This document shows, piece after piece, positions 33,014 through 45,136 of a DNA stretch of 57,703 bases (within the stretch, counting starts at the first letter, position 1; every line of letters starts with the position of its first letter). The stretch is from Wenzhouxiangella sp. 15190 (GTDB lineage Bacteria > Pseudomonadota > Gammaproteobacteria > Xanthomonadales > Wenzhouxiangellaceae), in NCBI RefSeq assembly GCF_003417465.1, contig NZ_QVMV01000002.1, positions 1 to 57,703 on the forward strand. The letters run 5' to 3'. Under the pieces are notes generated by a model. The model saw only the letters and a list, made by a program, of their open reading frames with translations. It was not told the DNA's origin and made no database searches. Made by a program: the position numbers and the translations under genes.

Positions 33014-33052
33014 ATGCTAGCGTACGCTGGCAATGCTATCATATGCTCTCAC
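33014..33052 (+). promoter_or_regulatory. Candidate operator of the FitAB-like module
   Basis: Two adjacent related 19-bp words, ATGCTAGCGTACGCTGGCA and ATGCTATCATATGCTCTCA. The first contains the perfect palindrome AGCGTACGCT (33019-33028). They end about 20 nt before the antitoxin ATG, as expected for autoregulation by a ribbon-helix-helix antitoxin. Confidence 0.5.
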
Positions 33053-33074
33053 CAACAAGCGGGGTGAAGCACAC

Positions 33075-33308
33075 ATGGCGAACCTGAGCGTTAGACGGCT
33101 GGACGACGAAACACTGGAGCTGCTGCGGGTTCGCGCAGCCCGGCATGGTGTTTCCATGGAAGAGGAGGTGCGTCGAATCATTCGCGAGTCGGTCTCTGCT
33201 CCCGCTCGCCTGGGCGATTTGGCGCTAGAGTTTTTCGGTGAATCGTACGGCGCGACCATCGAATTGCCGGAGCGTAAGCCCCACGAGCCCATTGATCTGG
33301 ATGCATGA
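33075..33308 (+). CDS. FitA-like ribbon-helix-helix antitoxin
   Basis: 77 residues from ATG 33075 with GGGGTGA upstream. The N-terminal RHH domain NLSVRRLDDETLELLRVRAA, then RHGVSMEEEVRRIIRES, binds operator DNA as a dimer. The C-terminal acidic/Pro segment should thread into the PIN toxin. Overlaps the toxin gene by 4 bp (ATGA). Confidence 0.9.
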   Translation: MANLSVRRLDDETLELLRVRAARHGVSMEEEVRRIIRESVSAPARLGDLALEFFGESYGATIELPERKPHEPIDLDA

Positions 33309-33721
33309 TCCTTCTCGATACCAACGTGCTGTCCGAATTGATGAAGGCTCGTCCTCAGGCTGGGGTGATTGCCTGGTTGAACGAAATGGAGACGACGCAG
33401 TTGTGGCTAAGCACCATCACGATTGCAGAGCTCGAGTATGGCCTGCAGGTGATGCCGGGCGGCGAGCGGAAGACAATGCTGAAACATCGATTCGACGGTT
33501 TCGTCGATTCGGCGTTCTCCGGCCGTGTGCTTGGATTCGGTTTCCGGCCTGCCGTCATTTACGGGGAAATTATGTCGCATCGACGTAGTGAGGGCAGGCC
33601 GATGAGCGTTCCGGATGGGCAGATTGCTTCGATTGCTTTGAGCCGGGGCCTCAAGTTGGCAACCCGCAACACCAGGGATTTCCAGGACTGCGGACTGGAT
33701 CTGATCAATCCTTTCAAGTGA
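33305..33721 (+). CDS. VapC/FitB-type PIN-domain toxin
   Basis: 138 residues. A PIN ribonuclease with acidic metal ligands in MILLDTNVLSE (Asp5), TIAELEYG (Glu) and SVPDGQIASIALSRG (Asp), and the Thr/Arg-rich LATRNTRDF. All catalytic positions are intact, so the toxin is probably functional and inhibited by the preceding antitoxin. Followed by a strong terminator. Confidence 0.92.
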   Translation: MILLDTNVLSELMKARPQAGVIAWLNEMETTQLWLSTITIAELEYGLQVMPGGERKTMLKHRFDGFVDSAFSGRVLGFGFRPAVIYGEIMSHRRSEGRPMSVPDGQIASIALSRGLKLATRNTRDFQDCGLDLINPFK

Positions 33722-34203: not shown

Positions 34204-34332
34204 GTTGGAATCTCCTGAAATACTGTCGCTGAAAGATTAAGCAGGGAATTATCGGATGAATCGGCTCGAGAGTCAACAACTGCCAGCCCCCGGCGTGCCG
34301 GCCCCTGGTGCCTGTTGCCCGGTGCCGTGCCA

Positions 34333-35946
34333 ATGAGTTTGCTGCGCTCGGTTTTCAGCTTCGGCTCGATGACGCTCATCTCGCGCATTCTGGGCTTCGT
34401 GCGCGACGTGGTCTTCGCGCGCTGGTTCGGGGCCGGGCCGGCGATGGACGCCTTCGTCTTCGCCTTCAAGATTCCGAATTTCCTGCGCCGGCTGTTCGCC
34501 GAGGGTTCGTTCTCGCTCGCCTTCGTGCCGGTGCTCAACGAGTACCGCGAAAAGCACGACCACGCGCAGCTCAAATCCCTGATCGACGCGACCGCGGGCA
34601 GCCTTCTGGCCGTGTTGCTGGTGGTCACCGCGCTGGGCATGTTCGCTTCCGGCTGGGTGGTCACCCTGTTCGCGCCGGGTTTCATCAACGACCCGGAGAC
34701 GTTCGCGCTCGCCGCCGACATGCTGCGGGTGACCTTTCCCTACCTGTTGTTCATCGCCCTGACGGCGCTGGCCGGCGGCATCCTCAACACCCTCGGTCGC
34801 TTCGCCCTGCCGGCCCTGACGCCGGCGCTGCTCAATATCTCGCTGATCACCGCGGCGGTGGTCGTCAGCCCGATGTTCGAGCAGCCGGTCAAGGCCCTGG
34901 CCTGGGGCGTACTGATCGCCGGCGTCCTCCAATTGCTGGTGCAGTTGCCGATACTGGCCCGGCACGATGTGCTTCCGCTGCCGAAGCCCGGTTTCGGGCA
35001 TGCCGGTGTCAAGCGCATCATGAAGCTGATGGTGCCGACCCTGTTCGGGTCTTCGGTGGCCCAGGTCAGCCTGCTGTTCGACGTGTTCTTCGCCTCGCTG
35101 TTGACCTCCGGCTCGCTGGCCTGGCTGTACTACGGCGACCGGCTGATGGAGTTTCCACTGGGGATGTTCGGGGTGGCACTGTCGGTCGTCATCCTGCCCA
35201 CGCTGTCGTCCCTGCACGCCAGGGACGGCCGCGAGGAATACCGGGCCACGCTCGACTGGGCCATGACGCTGGGGTTGGTCATTGCCATGCCGGCGGCGGT
35301 CGGCCTGGCCATCGTGGCCGAGCCGCTGGTCATCACGCTGTTCCACTACGGCGCATTCTCCGACCGCGATGCCGCCATGGCTGCGGCGGCCTTGCTGGCC
35401 TACACCCTGGGCCTGCCGGCGTTCATCGGCGTCAAGATCCTGGCGCCGGCGTATTTCTCGCGACAGGACACCAAGACACCGGTCAAGGTGGCCATCATCG
35501 CGTTCGCGGCCAATATGGTGCTGAACGTGCTGTTTGCCGTCTCCATCGCCCTGTGGCTAGCCGGCGGCAGCTACGAAAATGGCTTTCTCGCCATGCTGTC
35601 GGACCATCCCGGCGCGCACGCCGGCCTGGCGCTCGCCTCGAGTGTGTCGGGCTGGATCAACGCATCATTGCTTTGGCGCGGCCTGCGGCATGAATCGCTG
35701 ACGCCGCGGCTGCCGTGGCTGCGCGTGGGCCAGGTTGCGGCCGGTTGCCTGGCCATGGCGCTGGTCCTGTACCTGTTGCAGCCGGATTCGGTGCACTGGC
35801 TCGAGGCCGGCACGGCCTGGCGGATCGGCATGATCACCCTCGTGATCGGGGGCGGTACGGCCACCTATGCGCTGGTGCTCCTGGCCGCCGGTCTCCGCCC
35901 GCATCATGTCGCCCGTCCGCACAAGGTCCAATCAAGCGATTCGTAG
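34333..35946 (+). CDS. murJ: Lipid II flippase MurJ (MviN)
   Basis: 537 residues from ATG 34333. Flips lipid II to the outer face of the inner membrane for peptidoglycan assembly. About 14 hydrophobic segments. Conserved MOP-family markers are SRILGFVRDVVFARWFGAGPAMDAFVFA (start), FRRLFAEGSFS-like FLRRLFAEGSFSLAFVPVLN, and LYYGDRLMEFPLGMFGVALS. No Shine-Dalgarno is evident. The stop codon TAG lies inside a type-G repeat. Confidence 0.95.
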   Translation: MSLLRSVFSFGSMTLISRILGFVRDVVFARWFGAGPAMDAFVFAFKIPNFLRRLFAEGSFSLAFVPVLNEYREKHDHAQLKSLIDATAGSLLAVLLVVTALGMFASGWVVTLFAPGFINDPETFALAADMLRVTFPYLLFIALTALAGGILNTLGRFALPALTPALLNISLITAAVVVSPMFEQPVKALAWGVLIAGVLQLLVQLPILARHDVLPLPKPGFGHAGVKRIMKLMVPTLFGSSVAQVSLLFDVFFASLLTSGSLAWLYYGDRLMEFPLGMFGVALSVVILPTLSSLHARDGREEYRATLDWAMTLGLVIAMPAAVGLAIVAEPLVITLFHYGAFSDRDAAMAAAALLAYTLGLPAFIGVKILAPAYFSRQDTKTPVKVAIIAFAANMVLNVLFAVSIALWLAGGSYENGFLAMLSDHPGAHAGLALASSVSGWINASLLWRGLRHESLTPRLPWLRVGQVAAGCLAMALVLYLLQPDSVHWLEAGTAWRIGMITLVIGGGTATYALVLLAAGLRPHHVARPHKVQSSDS

Positions 35947-36023: not shown

Positions 36024-36053
36024 GTCCGTCGGCCATGTGAGGCCGACCTACGT
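36024..36053. repeat. Type-G palindromic repeat carrying the ArsA-like stop codon
   Basis: CGTCCGTCGGCCATGTGAGG followed by CCGACCTACG. Read on the minus strand it begins CGTAGGTCGG, and that TAG (36050-36048) ends the ArsA-like gene. Confidence 0.75.
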
Positions 36054-36995
36054 CCGTGGCCGGCAGGGCCGCAGGAAAGTCAGCAATTCGGCAAGCTCAT
36101 CGGGCCCGGTCGGAGATTCCGCGCGCAACTCGAGTTCGTGCAGCGGCAGGTCCGGAATCTGCCGCGCGAGTTCGTCGATCCAGCGTTGCTGTTGCTTCCG
36201 GCGGCGGGCGATGAAGTCGTGGTCGTCGTCCGGAAATACGCCGTTGACGATGCAGCCGGCCACTTCGATGCCGGTTTGTTGCAGTTGACCGGCCAGGCGC
36301 ACGCTCTCGAGCACCGGTAGCCGTTCGGGCGAACACACCAGCAGCGCGCCGCAGCACTCGGCGTCGGTCAGGGCGCGACCCACCGTTTCCAGGCGCGCCT
36401 GACGGCGCTGCAGGCGGTCGGCAATGCGGCGGCTGCGTTCCGACACGCTTTCGTCGTGGCCGCGTTCTACATTCAGCCGGTCATGGCGCTGCTGTTGATC
36501 GAGCAGCTCGTCGGTCCAGCGCCCCAGCGATTCGGGCAGCTGGAGCAGGCGCAGGGTATGGCCGCCCGGGGCGGTGTCGAGCACGATCCGCGCATAGTCG
36601 CGACCGACGCCGTCGAGCAGCCCGGCCAGCCAGTCGATCAGCGCGGCCTCGACGGTGCCGGGTGCGTTGTGCGCCAGCGCCATGTGCCGGTCGATGTCGG
36701 GCCAGGTATCGGGGTGAGCATAGTCGCGCAGGGCGCGGGCCACCTGCTCGACGTGTTCGGCGGCCAGTCGTTCGGCGTCGACCTCGATCGCGTCCAGGCC
36801 GGCTTCGACCGTTGAAGGTTCGTGGCCCAGCGTTGTCTGGAGCACGTCGCCGAGCGAATGCGCCGGGTCGGTGGAGACCACCAGCGTGCGATGTCCTGCG
36901 CGTGCGGCTTGTACCGCCAGGGCCGCCGAGACGGTGGTCTTGCCCACGCCGCCCTTGCCGGCGACCAGAACTACCGGCTGATCGCTCAGCAACAA
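36048..36995 (-). CDS. ArsA/GET3-like P-loop ATPase
   Basis: 315 residues if it starts at TTG 36995 (TTG 36992 also possible); both overlap the stop of the small CC-protein, so translation is coupled. Deviant Walker A VAGKGGVGKTTVSAALAV, switch-like VVSTDPAHSLGDVL, and DTAPGGHTLRLLQLP define the ArsA/GET3 fold. A Cys-Cys pair occurs in DAECCGALLVCSPERL. Only one ATPase half is present, so it should act as a homodimer. No arsenic genes are near; the partner is the cstA operon. The open frame upstream of 36995 is the shadow of the neighbouring gene. Confidence 0.8.
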   Translation of the reverse strand: MLLSDQPVVLVAGKGGVGKTTVSAALAVQAARAGHRTLVVSTDPAHSLGDVLQTTLGHEPSTVEAGLDAIEVDAERLAAEHVEQVARALRDYAHPDTWPDIDRHMALAHNAPGTVEAALIDWLAGLLDGVGRDYARIVLDTAPGGHTLRLLQLPESLGRWTDELLDQQQRHDRLNVERGHDESVSERSRRIADRLQRRQARLETVGRALTDAECCGALLVCSPERLPVLESVRLAGQLQQTGIEVAGCIVNGVFPDDDHDFIARRRKQQQRWIDELARQIPDLPLHELELRAESPTGPDELAELLTFLRPCRPRT

Positions 36996-37243
36996 CGCGG
37001 GCAATCCAAAGGCGAGTGGGACAGGCCCATGCGTCGGTGCCAGTCGTGAAAATCGTCGGCCAGCAGGGGCTTGAGTTCCAGCAGCAAACCGGCGGCGGGG
37101 TGATCGATGCCCAGCGCCTCGGCATGGACCAGCAGCATCAGCAGGTCGTGGCGGTCGCGCCGGATGCGGGCCAGCTCGCGGCTGTGGCGGGCGTGATAGA
37201 GCGTCTCGAGAAAGGCGTCGAGCCGACGCATCAGCCGCCTCAT
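36986..37243 (-). CDS. Small CstA-associated protein ending in Cys-Cys (cory-CC-star type)
   Basis: 85 residues from ATG 37243, overlapping the cstA stop by 4 bp (ATGA). A basic N-terminal helix (MRRLMRRLDAFLETLYHARHSR) is followed by RRDRHDLLMLLVHAEALGI and the C-terminus CPRCC-stop. A short protein ending exactly in CC next to CstA fits the NCBI family named cory-CC-star (from memory). E. coli CstA and BtsT have small partners (YbdD/YjiX) that also end in CC. Probably a transporter partner; the tail may bind metal or be modified. Confidence 0.75.
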   Translation of the reverse strand: MRRLMRRLDAFLETLYHARHSRELARIRRDRHDLLMLLVHAEALGIDHPAAGLLLELKPLLADDFHDWHRRMGLSHSPLDCPRCC

Positions 37244-38916
37244 GCCGCCTCCCGTCCGTCGCTGCGGCGGGCACGTACCAGGGCGCCGGCGGTTTCCAGG
37301 GCCACGAACACCGCGGCGACCAGGATCAATGCGTCCATGCCCAGCAGGAACCATTCACCGGCGCGATAGAAGTCGACGAGCTGGTAGAGCAGGGCGGCGA
37401 CGGTCATGGCGATGAGGCCGAGCATGGGTATCAGCAGCGGCCAGGACGGCCGGCCCTGGCGCGCCACCAGCAGTCCGACGACCAGCAGCGTCAGGGCGGC
37501 CAGCAACTGGTTGGTGGTGCCGAACAGCGGCCAGATCACCAGGCCGCCGGTGCCTTCCGTGCCCCCGGCGCCGAAGGCCAGGCCGACGCAACAGCCGACC
37601 GCCAGCGCGGTCGACGGGCCCTTGCGAAGCAGCAGCCCAATACCGTAGATCTGGCCCCATTCCTGGACGATGTAGCGCTGGAGTCGCACCCCGGTGTCCA
37701 TCGTGGTGGCCGCGAACAGCACCGCCATGACCGCCAGCAGGGTGGTGCCGACGGCCACGGGAAGGCCGTAGCCGGTGTTCATCAGGTTGGCGCCGCCCTG
37801 GACGAAGGCCGCCAGCCCGCCGGAGGCAAAACTGGAATAGAGTTCATTCCACTCGCCCAGGGTGGCGAAGCCGGCCGTGCAGGCCAGGATGGCCGCCAGC
37901 GCCAGGCAGCCCTCGCCGACGGCACCGAAATAGCCGACGAAGCGCGCGTCGGATTCGCGATCGAGCTGCTTGGAAGTCGTGCCCGAAGCCACCAGGCCGT
38001 GAAAGCCCGAGATCGCCCCGCAGGCGATGGTCACGAACAGCAGCGGGATCATGGGCGGAATGTCGTCGGGCAGGCCGGTGTTGATCATCGGCGCGACCAC
38101 TTGCGGATTGGCCAGCAGCACGGCGGCGAACAGCAGGCCCAGCCCGATGAACAGCTGCAGGCCGTTGATGTAGTCGCGCGGCTGCAGCAGCACCCACACC
38201 GGCAGCAGCGAGGCGATGGCGGCGTAGGCGAACAGCACGACGATCCACTGCGCGTTCGGGCCCAGCCCGAGTGCCGTCTCGGGCAGCGCCACGGGCACGT
38301 ACTGGCCCAGCCAGATGGTGAAGTACAGCACGGCGACGCCGGCGATGGAGAGCCAGGCCAGGCCGATGCGGCCGCGCCGGATGAGCTGGCCGAGCACCAG
38401 GGCCACGGCGATGGCGCTCCAGGCCGGCACGACACTTTGCGGATAGTCGACGAACAGGCGGGCGATGACCACCGCGAACACCGCGTTGACCATCAGCAGC
38501 AGCAAAAAAATGACGATCATGAACAGCGCCCGCGTGCGGCCGCTGACGAGCGCGCCGGTGAGCGCCCCGACCGACTGGCCGCGGTTGCGTATGCTGGCCC
38601 AGATGGCGCCGAAGTCGTGCACCCCGGCGATCAGGACCGTGCCCAGCACCACCCAGACGAAAGCCGGCCCCCAGCCCCAGATGACCGCGATGGCGGGCCC
38701 GACGATGGGCGCGGCGCCGGCCACCGAGGTGAAGTGATGCCCCCACAGCACGAAGCGGTTGGTTGGCACGTAGTCGATGTCGTCGCGCAGGGTGTGCGCC
38801 GGGGTCGGGCGGCTGTCGTCGAGGCGGTAGATGCGCTCGGCGATCCAGCGCGAATAGACCAGGTAGCCGAGGGCGAAGATTCCCAGTCCGATGAACAGCA
38901 GGGCAATGGCGTTCAT
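37240..38916 (-). CDS. cstA: CstA-family carbon starvation / peptide-pyruvate transporter
   Basis: 558 residues, a short-form CstA (E. coli CstA is about 700). Inner-membrane protein with about 15-16 hydrophobic segments. It begins with LVYSRWIAERIYRLDDSRPTPAHTLRDDIDYVPT and FVLWGHHFTSVAGAAPIVGPA, the characteristic CstA N-terminal block, and carries SGFHGLVASGTTSKQLDRESDAR and IWPLFGTTNQLLAAL. Family members import peptides or pyruvate during carbon limitation. First gene of the cstA - CC-protein - ArsA-like operon, with overlapping junctions. Confidence 0.9.
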   Translation of the reverse strand: MNAIALLFIGLGIFALGYLVYSRWIAERIYRLDDSRPTPAHTLRDDIDYVPTNRFVLWGHHFTSVAGAAPIVGPAIAVIWGWGPAFVWVVLGTVLIAGVHDFGAIWASIRNRGQSVGALTGALVSGRTRALFMIVIFLLLLMVNAVFAVVIARLFVDYPQSVVPAWSAIAVALVLGQLIRRGRIGLAWLSIAGVAVLYFTIWLGQYVPVALPETALGLGPNAQWIVVLFAYAAIASLLPVWVLLQPRDYINGLQLFIGLGLLFAAVLLANPQVVAPMINTGLPDDIPPMIPLLFVTIACGAISGFHGLVASGTTSKQLDRESDARFVGYFGAVGEGCLALAAILACTAGFATLGEWNELYSSFASGGLAAFVQGGANLMNTGYGLPVAVGTTLLAVMAVLFAATTMDTGVRLQRYIVQEWGQIYGIGLLLRKGPSTALAVGCCVGLAFGAGGTEGTGGLVIWPLFGTTNQLLAALTLLVVGLLVARQGRPSWPLLIPMLGLIAMTVAALLYQLVDFYRAGEWFLLGMDALILVAAVFVALETAGALVRARRSDGREAA

Positions 38917-39033: not shown

Positions 39034-39954
39034 ATGCGACTCATCCGACACCTCAATTCCGATCGCGAAGACCTGCCCGCCACCTCGGTGACCGTGGGCA
39101 ATTTCGACGGTCTGCACCGCGGTCACCAGGCGCTGATCGACGCCACCCGTGACGGCGCGGGCAAACTCGTGCCCGCCCTGATGTGTTTCGAGCCGCTGCC
39201 GGCGACCTTCTTCAAGCCGGAGGCGCCCCAGCCGCGCCTGCTCAGCGTGCGGGACCGGATCCGGCTGGTTCGCGATTTCGGACTGGAGCTGATGTTCATG
39301 CCGCGCTTCGACGCCGCCTTCGCGCGCCAGAGCCCGGAGCGCTTCGTGCGTGACGTGCTGGTCGCCGGTGCCCGCGCCGAGCGCGTGGTCGTCGGGGCGG
39401 ATTTCCGCTTCGGCTCGCGGGCCGCGGGAGATGTGGCCATGCTCGAAAAGCTGGGCCGGCGCTACGGTTTCTCGGTCGAGCGCGTCGAGGCCGTCGCCGA
39501 CGGCGATGAAAGAATCTCGTCGACGCGCATTCGCACCGCCATGTTCGAGGGTGACCTGCGCGAGGTCGAACGTCTGCTGGGCCGGCCGTACCGGGTATCG
39601 GGGCGGGTGCTGCGGGGCCGGGCACTGGGCCGCGACCTGGGCTTTCCGACGATCAACATCCGGCCGCCGATGCCGCCAGCGCTGACCGGCATCCTGGCCG
39701 TGCGCGTCTCCGGCGACGGTCTGGACGCGCACCCGGGCGTGGCCAGCCTGGGCCGTCGCCCGGTCCTGGGCGGTACCGACTGGCTCCTCGAAGTGCACCT
39801 GTTCGATTACGATGACCACCTGTACGGCAAGCATCTCGAAGTGGAGTTCGTCGAGTTCATCCGAAACGAAGAACACTTTGACGATCTCGAGACGTTGACC
39901 GAGCAAATGAAGAAGGATGCCGAGAAGGCGAGGAACGTGCTCGCGCGACAATGA
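39034..39954 (+). CDS. ribF: Bifunctional riboflavin kinase / FAD synthetase
   Basis: 306 residues. The N-terminal FAD synthetase domain has TVGNFDGLHRGHQALI (HxGH nucleotidyltransferase loop) and ISSTRIR. The C-terminal flavokinase domain starts GRVLRGRALGRDLGFPTINI and includes ASLGRRPVLGG plus the late Glu motif EVHLFDYDDHLYGKHLEVEF. Converts riboflavin to FMN and FAD. First gene of the conserved ribF-ileS-lspA block. Its stop TGA lies within a type-B repeat. Confidence 0.96.
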   Translation: MRLIRHLNSDREDLPATSVTVGNFDGLHRGHQALIDATRDGAGKLVPALMCFEPLPATFFKPEAPQPRLLSVRDRIRLVRDFGLELMFMPRFDAAFARQSPERFVRDVLVAGARAERVVVGADFRFGSRAAGDVAMLEKLGRRYGFSVERVEAVADGDERISSTRIRTAMFEGDLREVERLLGRPYRVSGRVLRGRALGRDLGFPTINIRPPMPPALTGILAVRVSGDGLDAHPGVASLGRRPVLGGTDWLLEVHLFDYDDHLYGKHLEVEFVEFIRNEEHFDDLETLTEQMKKDAEKARNVLARQ

Positions 39955-43654: not shown

Positions 43655-43885
43655 ATGCGTACGGTACCCGCCGCCGAAGCCAAGGCCCACTTTTCCGAGC
43701 TGCTCAAGTCCGTGGAGGCCGGCGAGGAAATCGTCATTACCCGTCGCGGCCGGGCGGTTGCTCGGCTCTCCTCTCAGAAACCACTCAAGGCAGCCGATGT
43801 GTTGGCACCGCTTTGGGATGAGCCGCTCGATATCGAATCGCCGGAGGACCGGACGCCGGAGCCCGTGCCGACCTGGGATGACTGA
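43655..43885 (+). CDS. Phd/YefM-type antitoxin
   Basis: 76 residues with CAGGAG upstream of ATG 43655. Begins RTVPAAEAKAHFSELLKSVE, then AGEEIVITRRGRAVARL, the Phd/YefM DNA-binding domain. The C-terminal ~30 residues are acidic and Pro rich, the toxin-neutralising tail. The PIN toxin starts 2 nt after its stop. Confidence 0.92.
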   Translation: MRTVPAAEAKAHFSELLKSVEAGEEIVITRRGRAVARLSSQKPLKAADVLAPLWDEPLDIESPEDRTPEPVPTWDD

Positions 43886-43887
43886 GC

Positions 43888-44292
43888 ATGGCGGTTTACC
43901 TGCTCGACACCAACATGTTGATTGCGGCGGTCAAGGGTCGTTCCCCGGTGCGCGAACGGCTTGAAACGATCGATGCCTCCAATATCCTGATTTCTCCCAT
44001 CGTTCTGGGTGAACTGCTCACCGGGGTCGAGAAAAGCCAAAGGAAATCCGCCAACCGAAAGCGGTTGCTGACGGTCCTGGAAGGGTTGCGGATTGTCGAG
44101 TTGGGCCCTGAAGTTGCCGTCCGATACGGCCAGGTTCGCGCTTTCCTCGAATCGAAGGGTACCCCGATCGGGGCGAATGACTTCTGGATTGCCGCTCACG
44201 CCCTGGACCTGGGCGCCGTGCTGGTTACCGACAACGAGCGGGAATTCCACCGTGTACCCGGTCTGGACGTCGAGAACTGGCTGGCTAATTGA
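43888..44292 (+). CDS. VapC-type PIN-domain toxin
   Basis: 134 residues. PIN nuclease with the ligands in YLLDTNMLIAAVKG (Asp), ISPIVLGELLTG (Glu), IGANDFWIAAHAL (Asp) and LVTDNEREFHRV (Asp). Catalytic set intact. Predicted tRNA- or mRNA-cleaving toxin held by the preceding Phd-type antitoxin. Unrelated in detail to the FitB-like toxin at 33305. Confidence 0.93.
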   Translation: MAVYLLDTNMLIAAVKGRSPVRERLETIDASNILISPIVLGELLTGVEKSQRKSANRKRLLTVLEGLRIVELGPEVAVRYGQVRAFLESKGTPIGANDFWIAAHALDLGAVLVTDNEREFHRVPGLDVENWLAN

Positions 44293-44330
44293 GGTTGCGA
44301 GCTGTCGGAAAAGGCGACACTCGCGCGTTG

Positions 44331-44336
44331 TACAAT
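44331..44336 (+). promoter_or_regulatory. -10-like TACAAT, 6 nt before the MNT gene
   Basis: TACAAT, then CGGCCC, then ATG 44343; no Shine-Dalgarno. Candidate leaderless start of the MNT/HEPN module. Confidence 0.4.
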
Positions 44337-44342
44337 CGGCCC

Positions 44343-44645
44343 ATGCGATTGACGCCGGAACAAGTTGAAGCCATAAAAGCCGCAGCGGCGGAAGTGTTCG
44401 GTCCGGATGCTGAAGTGTGGCTGTTCGGCTCGCGCGCCGACGACTCGCGTCGGGGTGGTGATATCGACCTTTATGTCGAACTCGGCCGAATCAGTAGTGG
44501 GGAACGCACCCGGCTCGAGGCCAGGTTCTGGGCGAAACTCCAGCGTTTGCTGGGCGAGCGCAAGATCGACATCGTCACACATCCGCACGGGGCGCCTGTT
44601 CGACCCATCGATCGCCAGGCTCGCAGTTCGGGCGTGCGTCTATGA
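44343..44645 (+). CDS. mntA: MntA-type nucleotidyltransferase antitoxin
   Basis: 100 residues from ATG 44343. Minimal nucleotidyltransferase with LFGSRADDSRRGGDIDLYVE (GS plus DxD) and a third carboxylate in KIDIVTH. In characterised systems MntA neutralises its HEPN toxin by transferring AMP groups to a tyrosine. The HEPN gene starts inside its stop codon (ATGA overlap). The longer reading from 44289 lacks conserved sequence. Confidence 0.88.
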   Translation: MRLTPEQVEAIKAAAAEVFGPDAEVWLFGSRADDSRRGGDIDLYVELGRISSGERTRLEARFWAKLQRLLGERKIDIVTHPHGAPVRPIDRQARSSGVRL

Positions 44646-45136
44646 ATAGCAGCGAAATCGTTGAACTCAATCTGGAACCGGCTTTGCGTGAATGCCGGCT
44701 GCACGAACGGCGATTGGCCTACGCCCAAGCGCAACTCGCCAACCAACTGCCGCTGTCGGCCTCCGGCTGGGAATCTCTGGACGATGAGACCGTGGCGGAC
44801 ATCGACCAGCTCCTGTTCCGATATGACAAACTGCAGGACGCCAAGGGGCAGCGGCTCTTTCCGGCCATACTGATGCTGGGTGGAGATTGGCGGGAAGATC
44901 AGACGTTCATAGATCGGCTCGATCTGCTGGAAAAGCTGGGCGCCATTCCGTCGGCACAGCAATGGAGCGAACTGCGTGCCATCCGCAACAAGATGACTCA
45001 CGAATACCCCGACGCGCCCGAAGTGAATGCCGCCAATCTGAACCGGGTGGTGGAGTCAATCGGGCCGTTGAGGGAAGCGCTGGATCAGTCCGATTCCTTC
45101 GCGAAACGACTGGTCGAGCGCGTCGTTTCTCGGTAG
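44642..45136 (+). CDS. hepT: HepT-type HEPN ribonuclease toxin
   Basis: 164 residues, all-helical. Carries RNKMTHEY, matching the R-x4-H-x-Y motif: Arg and His form the HEPN RNase site and Tyr is the residue AMPylated by MntA. The motif lies in SELRAIRNKMTHEYPDAPEV near residue 120. Antitoxin comes first here, with a 4-bp overlap. Longer at its N-terminus than the smallest HepT proteins. Confidence 0.88.
   Translation: MNSSEIVELNLEPALRECRLHERRLAYAQAQLANQLPLSASGWESLDDETVADIDQLLFRYDKLQDAKGQRLFPAILMLGGDWREDQTFIDRLDLLEKLGAIPSAQQWSELRAIRNKMTHEYPDAPEVNAANLNRVVESIGPLREALDQSDSFAKRLVERVVSR

Follow-up and report, generated by a model that had tools for sequence, protein, structure and literature searches.

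The CstA relatives studied so far have been described as secondary (proton-driven) pyruvate transporters, and one of them, BtsT, is termed an H+/pyruvate symporter (PMC7730263). In Escherichia coli, pyruvate uptake falls to 20% of the wild type level upon deletion of ybdD and to 13% upon deletion of cstA, effects that the authors consider possibly indirect (PMC5847655), and a predicted CstA-YbdD complex is reported in a preprint as scoring above the cut-off used there (PMC11188072). The role of this small partner, which ends in two cysteines (Cys-Cys, hereinafter CC), has been a question ever since YbdD was found to be needed for full pyruvate uptake. Here we analyze a 57,703-nucleotide stretch of Wenzhouxiangella sp. 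15190 (contig NZ_QVMV01000002.1; hereinafter, the window) in which a gene for a short-form CstA is followed by genes for a small CC-ending protein, Cory, and for a single-domain ATPase of the ArsA/GET3 type. Such ATPase-linked CstAs offer a handle on this question.

Identity and joint distribution of the three genes

The initial annotation reported cstA, an 85-amino acid (aa) protein ending in CPRCC and an ArsA/GET3-type ATPase with overlapping gene junctions; all three are present on the minus strand, and their products pass the respective family models. CstA, the only one found in this genome, scores 438 bits against PF02554 (gathering cut-off 27). The small protein, with the C-terminus DCPRCC-stop, belongs to the NCBIfam family NF041419, "cory-CC-star protein", and aligns with positions 2-80 of the 80 in that profile at a score above the curated cut-off; it matched no Pfam family and falls outside PF04328 (YbdD/YjiX). 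The ATPase scores 223.4 bits against TIGR00345 (TRC40/GET3/ArsA; cut-off 135 bits) and matches ArsA_ATPase (PF02374) along its full length; it is a single 315-aa domain and, at 137.7 bits, falls short of the 650-bit cut-off of the two-domain arsenical pump model TIGR04291. The joint mechanism had been taken to be undescribed, and a literature search on cory-CC-star, CC-star, CstA or carbon starvation with ArsA, with subscription papers outside its scope, indeed yielded nothing relevant; the protein family itself, however, is already named in NCBIfam, under a name that carries no function.

A survey for the co-occurrence of CstA, a CC-ending open reading frame (ORF) and a single-domain ArsA, as proposed in the initial annotation, bore out the linkage across phyla. 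A contig scan built on an alignment of eight Cory proteins yielded at least 497 related places, and among the best 80 of these, the order CstA-Cory-ArsA was observed in 75, Cory with ArsA in 79 and CstA with Cory in 76 (CstA lies in two frames at locus L035, and the ATPase is cut at the contig end at L045 and L080). No CstA adjoins Cory at L063, L068, L076 and L089, and in these genomes a CstA match is found elsewhere (67, 69 and 57% identical in three of them and only 34%, in two pieces, in that of L076). At L085, there is no ATPase, and a different ORF follows. By eye, Cory and the ATPase of L076 and L089 adjoin smpB-like, NSS-type symporter, ratA-like and rnfH-like genes rather than cstA.

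Linkage also holds among closer relatives. In a 200-genome sample of the window's order, the window's genome included, Cory was found in 8 genomes (7 over the cut-off), all 8 with the complete trio. Within the window's genus, CstA is present in all 6 Cory-positive mates and in none of the 10 Cory-negative mates tested (15 listed). We then consider a 398-genome sample of the window's phylum, which served as one set for the Cory, CstA, YbdD and ATPase searches: Cory was detected in 7 genomes, CstA in 189 and YbdD-type proteins in 67. ATPases scoring at least 223 bits occur in 7 genomes, which are exactly the 7 Cory genomes (7/7, from 7 families), and CstA is present in all of them. In 12 further genomes with an ATPase match at E 1e-18, the score is at most 147 bits, and 10 of these matches lie in ORFs whose length, 579-918 aa, corresponds to that of two-domain ArsA. 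The evolutionary distances of the three proteins are also correlated across 82 loci (0.79-0.91), but this was set aside as evidence because plain vertical descent yields equally high values.

In four genomes of another genus (L140-L143), a CstA placed inside the Cory clade (support 98/93, with the exact position differing between two CstA trees) is accompanied by neither Cory nor the ATPase. Thus, CstA can outlive the pair, which was apparently lost jointly in these genomes; the ATPase is not kept without Cory. These lone CstAs sit on a long branch (0.59-0.72), and 16 of 222 conserved CstA sites are changed in all four, scattered along the protein and mostly conservatively, a pattern that gave no lead. 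The 398-genome sample also contains many lone short-form CstAs from other lineages, 14 of which were examined besides these four.

The designation of the permease as short-form is apt: the 75 Cory-linked CstAs read complete span 551-585 aa (68 of them 557-564), vs. 646-683 aa for 30 long-form CstAs. Cys299 of CstA is found in 124 of 124 sequences, partnered and lone alike. For Cys443, the count is 75 of 76 among the Cory-linked CstAs and 4 of 4 among the lone members of the same clade, and the remaining 14 lone and all 30 long-form CstAs lack it; considered as candidate partners of the Cory tail, the two cysteines gave no clear lead.

Coordinates of the features of the cstA-cory-ATPase operon in the window.
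Feature	Coordinates	Strand	Evidence
cstA, short-form CstA transporter, 558 aa	37240..38916	minus	PF02554 E 7e-131
cory-CC-star protein (Cory), 85 aa	36986..37243	minus	NF041419 95.3 bits, cut-off 80
Single-domain ArsA/GET3-type ATPase, 315 aa, inferred TTG start	36048..36995	minus	TIGR00345 223 bits, PF02374
ATGA overlap, cstA stop/Cory start	37240..37243	minus	sequence
10-base overlap, Cory stop/inferred ATPase start	36986..36995	minus	sequence
Cys84-Cys85 codons at Cory end	36989..36994	minus	Cys-Cys in 94/94 Cory sequences
Cory FHDWHRR motif, residues 65-71	37031..37051	minus	FHxWHxR in 94/94
ATPase P-loop GKGGVGKT	36936..36959	minus	motif seen in sequence
ATPase switch II DTAPGGHT	36555..36578	minus	DTAPxGHT in 94/94 CC-partnered ATPases

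The Cory stop codon (36988-36986) is overlapped by the putative ATPase start, TTG at 36995, which was chosen over the TTG codons at 37004 and 36992 because 15 other loci have an overlap of exactly 10 bases (15 of the 93 loci measured, including the close relative L007; in that measurement, the window's own copy was counted at an upstream TTG). Promoter and terminator scans found none. The operon lies between two plus-strand genes, murJ (34315-35946) and ribF (39034-39954), and no additional gene family is common to most of 68 loci, the largest cluster covering 19; any restriction of the recurring neighbor families to single lineages was judged by eye. Elsewhere, the window carries a FitA-like antitoxin and PIN toxin pair with overlapping ends (33033-33721) and, at 43655-45136, a Phd/YefM-type antitoxin with a PIN toxin. 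Directly after the latter come a gene for a nucleotidyltransferase and a small gene that matched no Pfam family; at a guess, these two may form a pair of the MNT-HEPN type.

The Cys-Cys tail and relatives that lack it

The terminal CC is present in all 94 Cory proteins, which include that of the window, comprise 89 distinct sequences and are close relatives by search design, the peptide patterns of the scan excluding the tail and the NF041419 model including it; the FHxWHxR motif is likewise invariant. In the predicted structure, two helices (residues 2-43 and 51-72) are followed by a loose tail of the C-terminal 13 residues (mean predicted local distance difference test score, pLDDT, 82; last block, 53). 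A fold search with this model gave 5 matches, the best at E 5.8 and none meaningful, and a sequence search for solved structures found no relative of CstA or Cory. The small protein was initially called basic, which suits the window's copy (isoelectric point 8.66) but not the family, whose sampled members range from about 5.0 to 9.1.

The terminal CC is common to two kinds of CstA partners. Among the 30 best-scoring long-form CstA genes of the CstA search, 29 are followed by a gene for a CC-ending small protein (the exception is L130), and no CC-ending ORF was found within 350 bases after 18 lone short-form CstA genes. Profile comparison with hhalign of YbdD against Cory, the CC-less set and all Cory-like proteins, in several directions and modes, never exceeded a probability of 1.5%, on which grounds homology is regarded as not demonstrated, although the two may share a distant origin. 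Because no homology was detected, the shared tail is probably convergent, in line with the initial annotation. In their consensus, YbdD-type proteins combine two conserved histidines with CC, in a His motif unlike that of Cory.

The initial annotation further proposed that the ATPase may load or release the transporter, its partner or a metal at the CC tail, and as stated this is not supported. In a further sample, 80 genomes from the phylum of the Acidobacteria metagenome-assembled genome G591, the Cory model gave a match at E 1e-3 in 12, of which 2 exceeded its cut-off; the regions of the 10 below-cut-off genomes and of one of the two above were read. Three genomes combine CstA with a single CC-less Cory-like protein and a single ArsA in overlapping or abutting genes. 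In five, CstA is accompanied by a pair of CC-less Cory-like proteins and a pair of ArsA genes (the first copy was in some cases read out of a longer ORF), and in one more, another ORF comes after CstA and before the CC-less protein and ArsA. Thus, nine genomes in all have CC-less Cory homologues between the CstA and ArsA genes. These are homologous to CC-tailed Cory (98.4%, E 4e-15 in a profile comparison with locus L170 left out). Five of the more distant proteins, four CC-less (21-36 bits) and one divergent but CC-ending (59 bits), were scored against NF041419 and lie below its cut-off, and none of the five reached the cut-off of any NCBIfam or Pfam family. Because CC-less relatives of Cory keep CstA and ArsA, the CC tail is not what ties the ATPase to the transporter. 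The CstAs beside CC-less partners fall in at least three separate places of the CstA tree (long branches flagged), and the partnership of CstA with Cory-type proteins therefore appears either to be old or to have moved between CstA lineages.

In the five two-ATPase loci, Asn replaces the Asp of switch I in the second ATPase, so that the two may form a heterodimer of unequal subunits in which one site is weakened. These loci are L171, L174, L175, L176 and L177, with the genes in the L174 genome spread over two contigs; no description of the two-hairpin, two-ATPase version was found, the literature not having been searched for it by name. At L170 (genome G654), the Cory relative is divergent and has the C-terminus FCC; it and its ATPase lie, by eye, between heavy-metal P-type ATPase-like and efflux-like genes, next to an apparent ArsR-type regulator, with the CstA of that genome on a different contig.

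The tail correlates with the sequence of the ATPase. The switch II motif DTAPxGHT is present in all 94 ATPases counted with CC partners vs. none of the 14 with CC-less partners, and STDPAH in 93 of 94 vs. 0 of 14, a correlation that is based on few independent lineages. The CC-partnered ATPases counted are those of at least 280 aa, with 4 of 98 omitted (three cut at contig ends, and L038, which carries both motifs). The switch II motif is also carried by arsenic ArsA proteins and by GET3 proteins.

A metal hand-off from the tail to cysteines of the ATPase is unlikely because no cysteine column is conserved across 89 aligned ATPases, and a cysteine hand-off from Cory to the ATPase was rejected in that form for the same reason. 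The arsenical pump ATPase ArsA has metalloid-binding cysteines, and GET3 has a CxxC zinc motif at its dimer interface; the Cory-linked ATPases show neither the cysteines expected for TIGR04291 ArsA nor the CxxC expected for GET3. The tail could nevertheless be relevant to the ATPase, given that the canonical switch motif was seen only with CC partners and that the small CC-ending proteins HcsL and HcsS are encoded beside arsA; in view of these NCBI-named proteins, CC tails may meet ArsA-type ATPases.

Possible modes of action

We tentatively favor a three-part transporter, in which CstA would be the permease in the membrane, its probable substrate being pyruvate or a related small carboxylate or peptide. 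By analogy with YbdD in E. coli, Cory would be its accessory subunit, a small cytosolic helical hairpin taking the place on CstA that YbdD takes on long-form CstA. The ATPase, probably a homodimer, most likely acts upon CstA through Cory because it tracks Cory more closely than CstA; ATP binding and hydrolysis would move Cory on and off the permease and so set the assembly or activity of CstA. The terminal CC would be an addition seen in one branch, where it would act as a thiol site that tunes the switch according to redox or metal state. The genes, their linkage, their joint presence and absence and the CC-less relatives are observations; all binding, the direction of action, the roles of ATP and the tail, and a gain of the tail in this branch or its loss in others are suggestions.

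Some observations weigh against this scheme. A CstA lineage persists without Cory and the ATPase, so the pair is dispensable for some CstAs of the clade. In ATPases with CC-less partners, the switch motifs are altered, and their nucleotide switching may have changed or disappeared. Finally, Cory and YbdD are never found together in the 398 genomes, but about 1.2 such genomes are expected by chance, and the non-overlap alone is not significant; no YbdD/YjiX (PF04328) relative was found in the window's whole genome.

The alternatives assign the ATPase a different role. In a pump resembling ArsB-ArsD-ArsA, it would energize uphill transport by CstA, with Cory as the coupling subunit. ArsAB pumps are ATP-driven, the ATPase belongs to the same ArsA/GET3 family, a permease with a small Cys-pair protein and an ATPase recalls arsB/arsD/arsA, and CC-ending proteins are annotated by NCBI beside arsA in haloarchaea. 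The Cory-linked ATPase, however, is single-domain and without conserved cysteines, and in CC-less relatives it is switch-altered yet still linked to CstA. Together with the description of the CstA relative BtsT as a symporter (PMC7730263), these features make a pump unlikely in our judgment. Alternatively, the ATPase could be a GET3-like biogenesis chaperone, bringing Cory or CstA to the membrane and having no role in transport. The closest solved structure to its AlphaFold2 model (pLDDT 88) is archaeal TRC40/Get3 (3zq6, template modeling score 0.82), and GET3 recognizes the C-termini of its clients, which a C-terminal tail serving as a signal would suit. Nevertheless, the last 13 residues of Cory form a loose tail in the model rather than a membrane anchor, the protein is hydrophilic (grand average of hydropathy -0.31), the ATPase lacks a conserved CxxC, and there are relatives without the tail, so that this role, too, appears improbable.

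A metal or redox sensor, in which Cys84-Cys85, perhaps with His66 and His69, binds a metal, a metalloid or a disulfide partner and the ATPase responds to that state by gating CstA, would account for the invariance of CC and FHxWHxR. YbdD-type proteins likewise pair two conserved histidines with CC, HcsL and HcsS end in CC beside arsD-arsA, and the L170 relative lies beside what by eye resemble genes for a heavy-metal P-type ATPase, an ArsR-type regulator and efflux. Against this stand the retention of CstA and the ATPase with CC-less homologues, the lack of a clear tail partner among the two conserved CstA cysteines, and window neighbors, murJ and ribF, that are not metal genes; we consider such a sensor quite improbable. 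Mere co-transcription of unrelated genes, the window directly showing just gene order and overlap, is hardly credible given the conservation over phyla, the joint presence and absence, and the co-occurrence when unlinked.

To return to the three-part transporter, it is conceivable, although doubtful, that it represents an ancient and widespread class of ATPase-coupled transporters in which an ArsA/GET3-type switch controls or powers CstA via a hairpin, in three architectures (the CC-tailed trio, the CC-less trio, and two hairpins with two ATPases), the terminal CC having evolved repeatedly in unrelated small proteins (Cory, YbdD, HcsL/HcsS), where it would serve such machines for docking or sensing. 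An ATPase working with CstA would also give the ArsA/GET3 family a bacterial task beyond arsenic export. The companion enzyme of Cory can be disabled by a single point mutation, and the natural CC-less versions indicate the essential part of the partner.

Comparison with known systems

As in E. coli CstA-YbdD, a CstA-family permease gene in the window is followed by a gene for a small CC-ending partner; in contrast, E. coli CstA is long-form, YbdD has no detectable homology to Cory, and none of the 67 YbdD-type genomes has an ATPase of at least 223 bits, unlike the Cory genomes. The arsenite pump (ArsA with ArsB and ArsD) shares the ATPase family and a helper with a cysteine pair, whereas the window ATPase has a single domain where ArsA has two, lacks conserved cysteines, and falls on the opposite side of a supported branch: in a 44-sequence tree, all 39 Cory-linked ATPases are split from the outgroups by one branch (99/97), the outgroups being few (four arsenic ArsA domains and one lone haloarchaeal ATPase) and several rows flagged for letter make-up. 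GET3/TRC40 proteins are similar to the window ATPase in fold and size but differ in the CxxC; we know of no tail-anchored client of a Cory-linked ATPase.

HcsL (NF041416) and HcsS (NF041415) resemble Cory as small CC-ending proteins beside an ArsA ATPase; unlike Cory, HcsL is of the Com_YlbF type, and the two lie in an arsenic operon with no CstA in the stretch shown. On a Halobacterium plasmid (L193:3322-3953), arsD-arsA is followed by HcsL and HcsS, both CC-ending and named halo-CC-star by NCBI. A literature search on HcsL, HcsS and C-terminal Cys-Cys gave nothing related among the matches listed, and neither Cory nor ArsA is annotated next to CstA for two haloarchaeal plasmid CstAs and one Azospirillum CstA. 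In Haloferax volcanii, which served as a control genome, Cory gave a weak match. The NF041419 plasmid records are the same in order as the window: in the three inspected, from Pseudochrobactrum, Paracoccus and Cytobacillus (Bacillota), the genes are named CstA, cory-CC-star and ArsA and succeed one another as they do here, with one additional small gene between cstA and cory in Cytobacillus.

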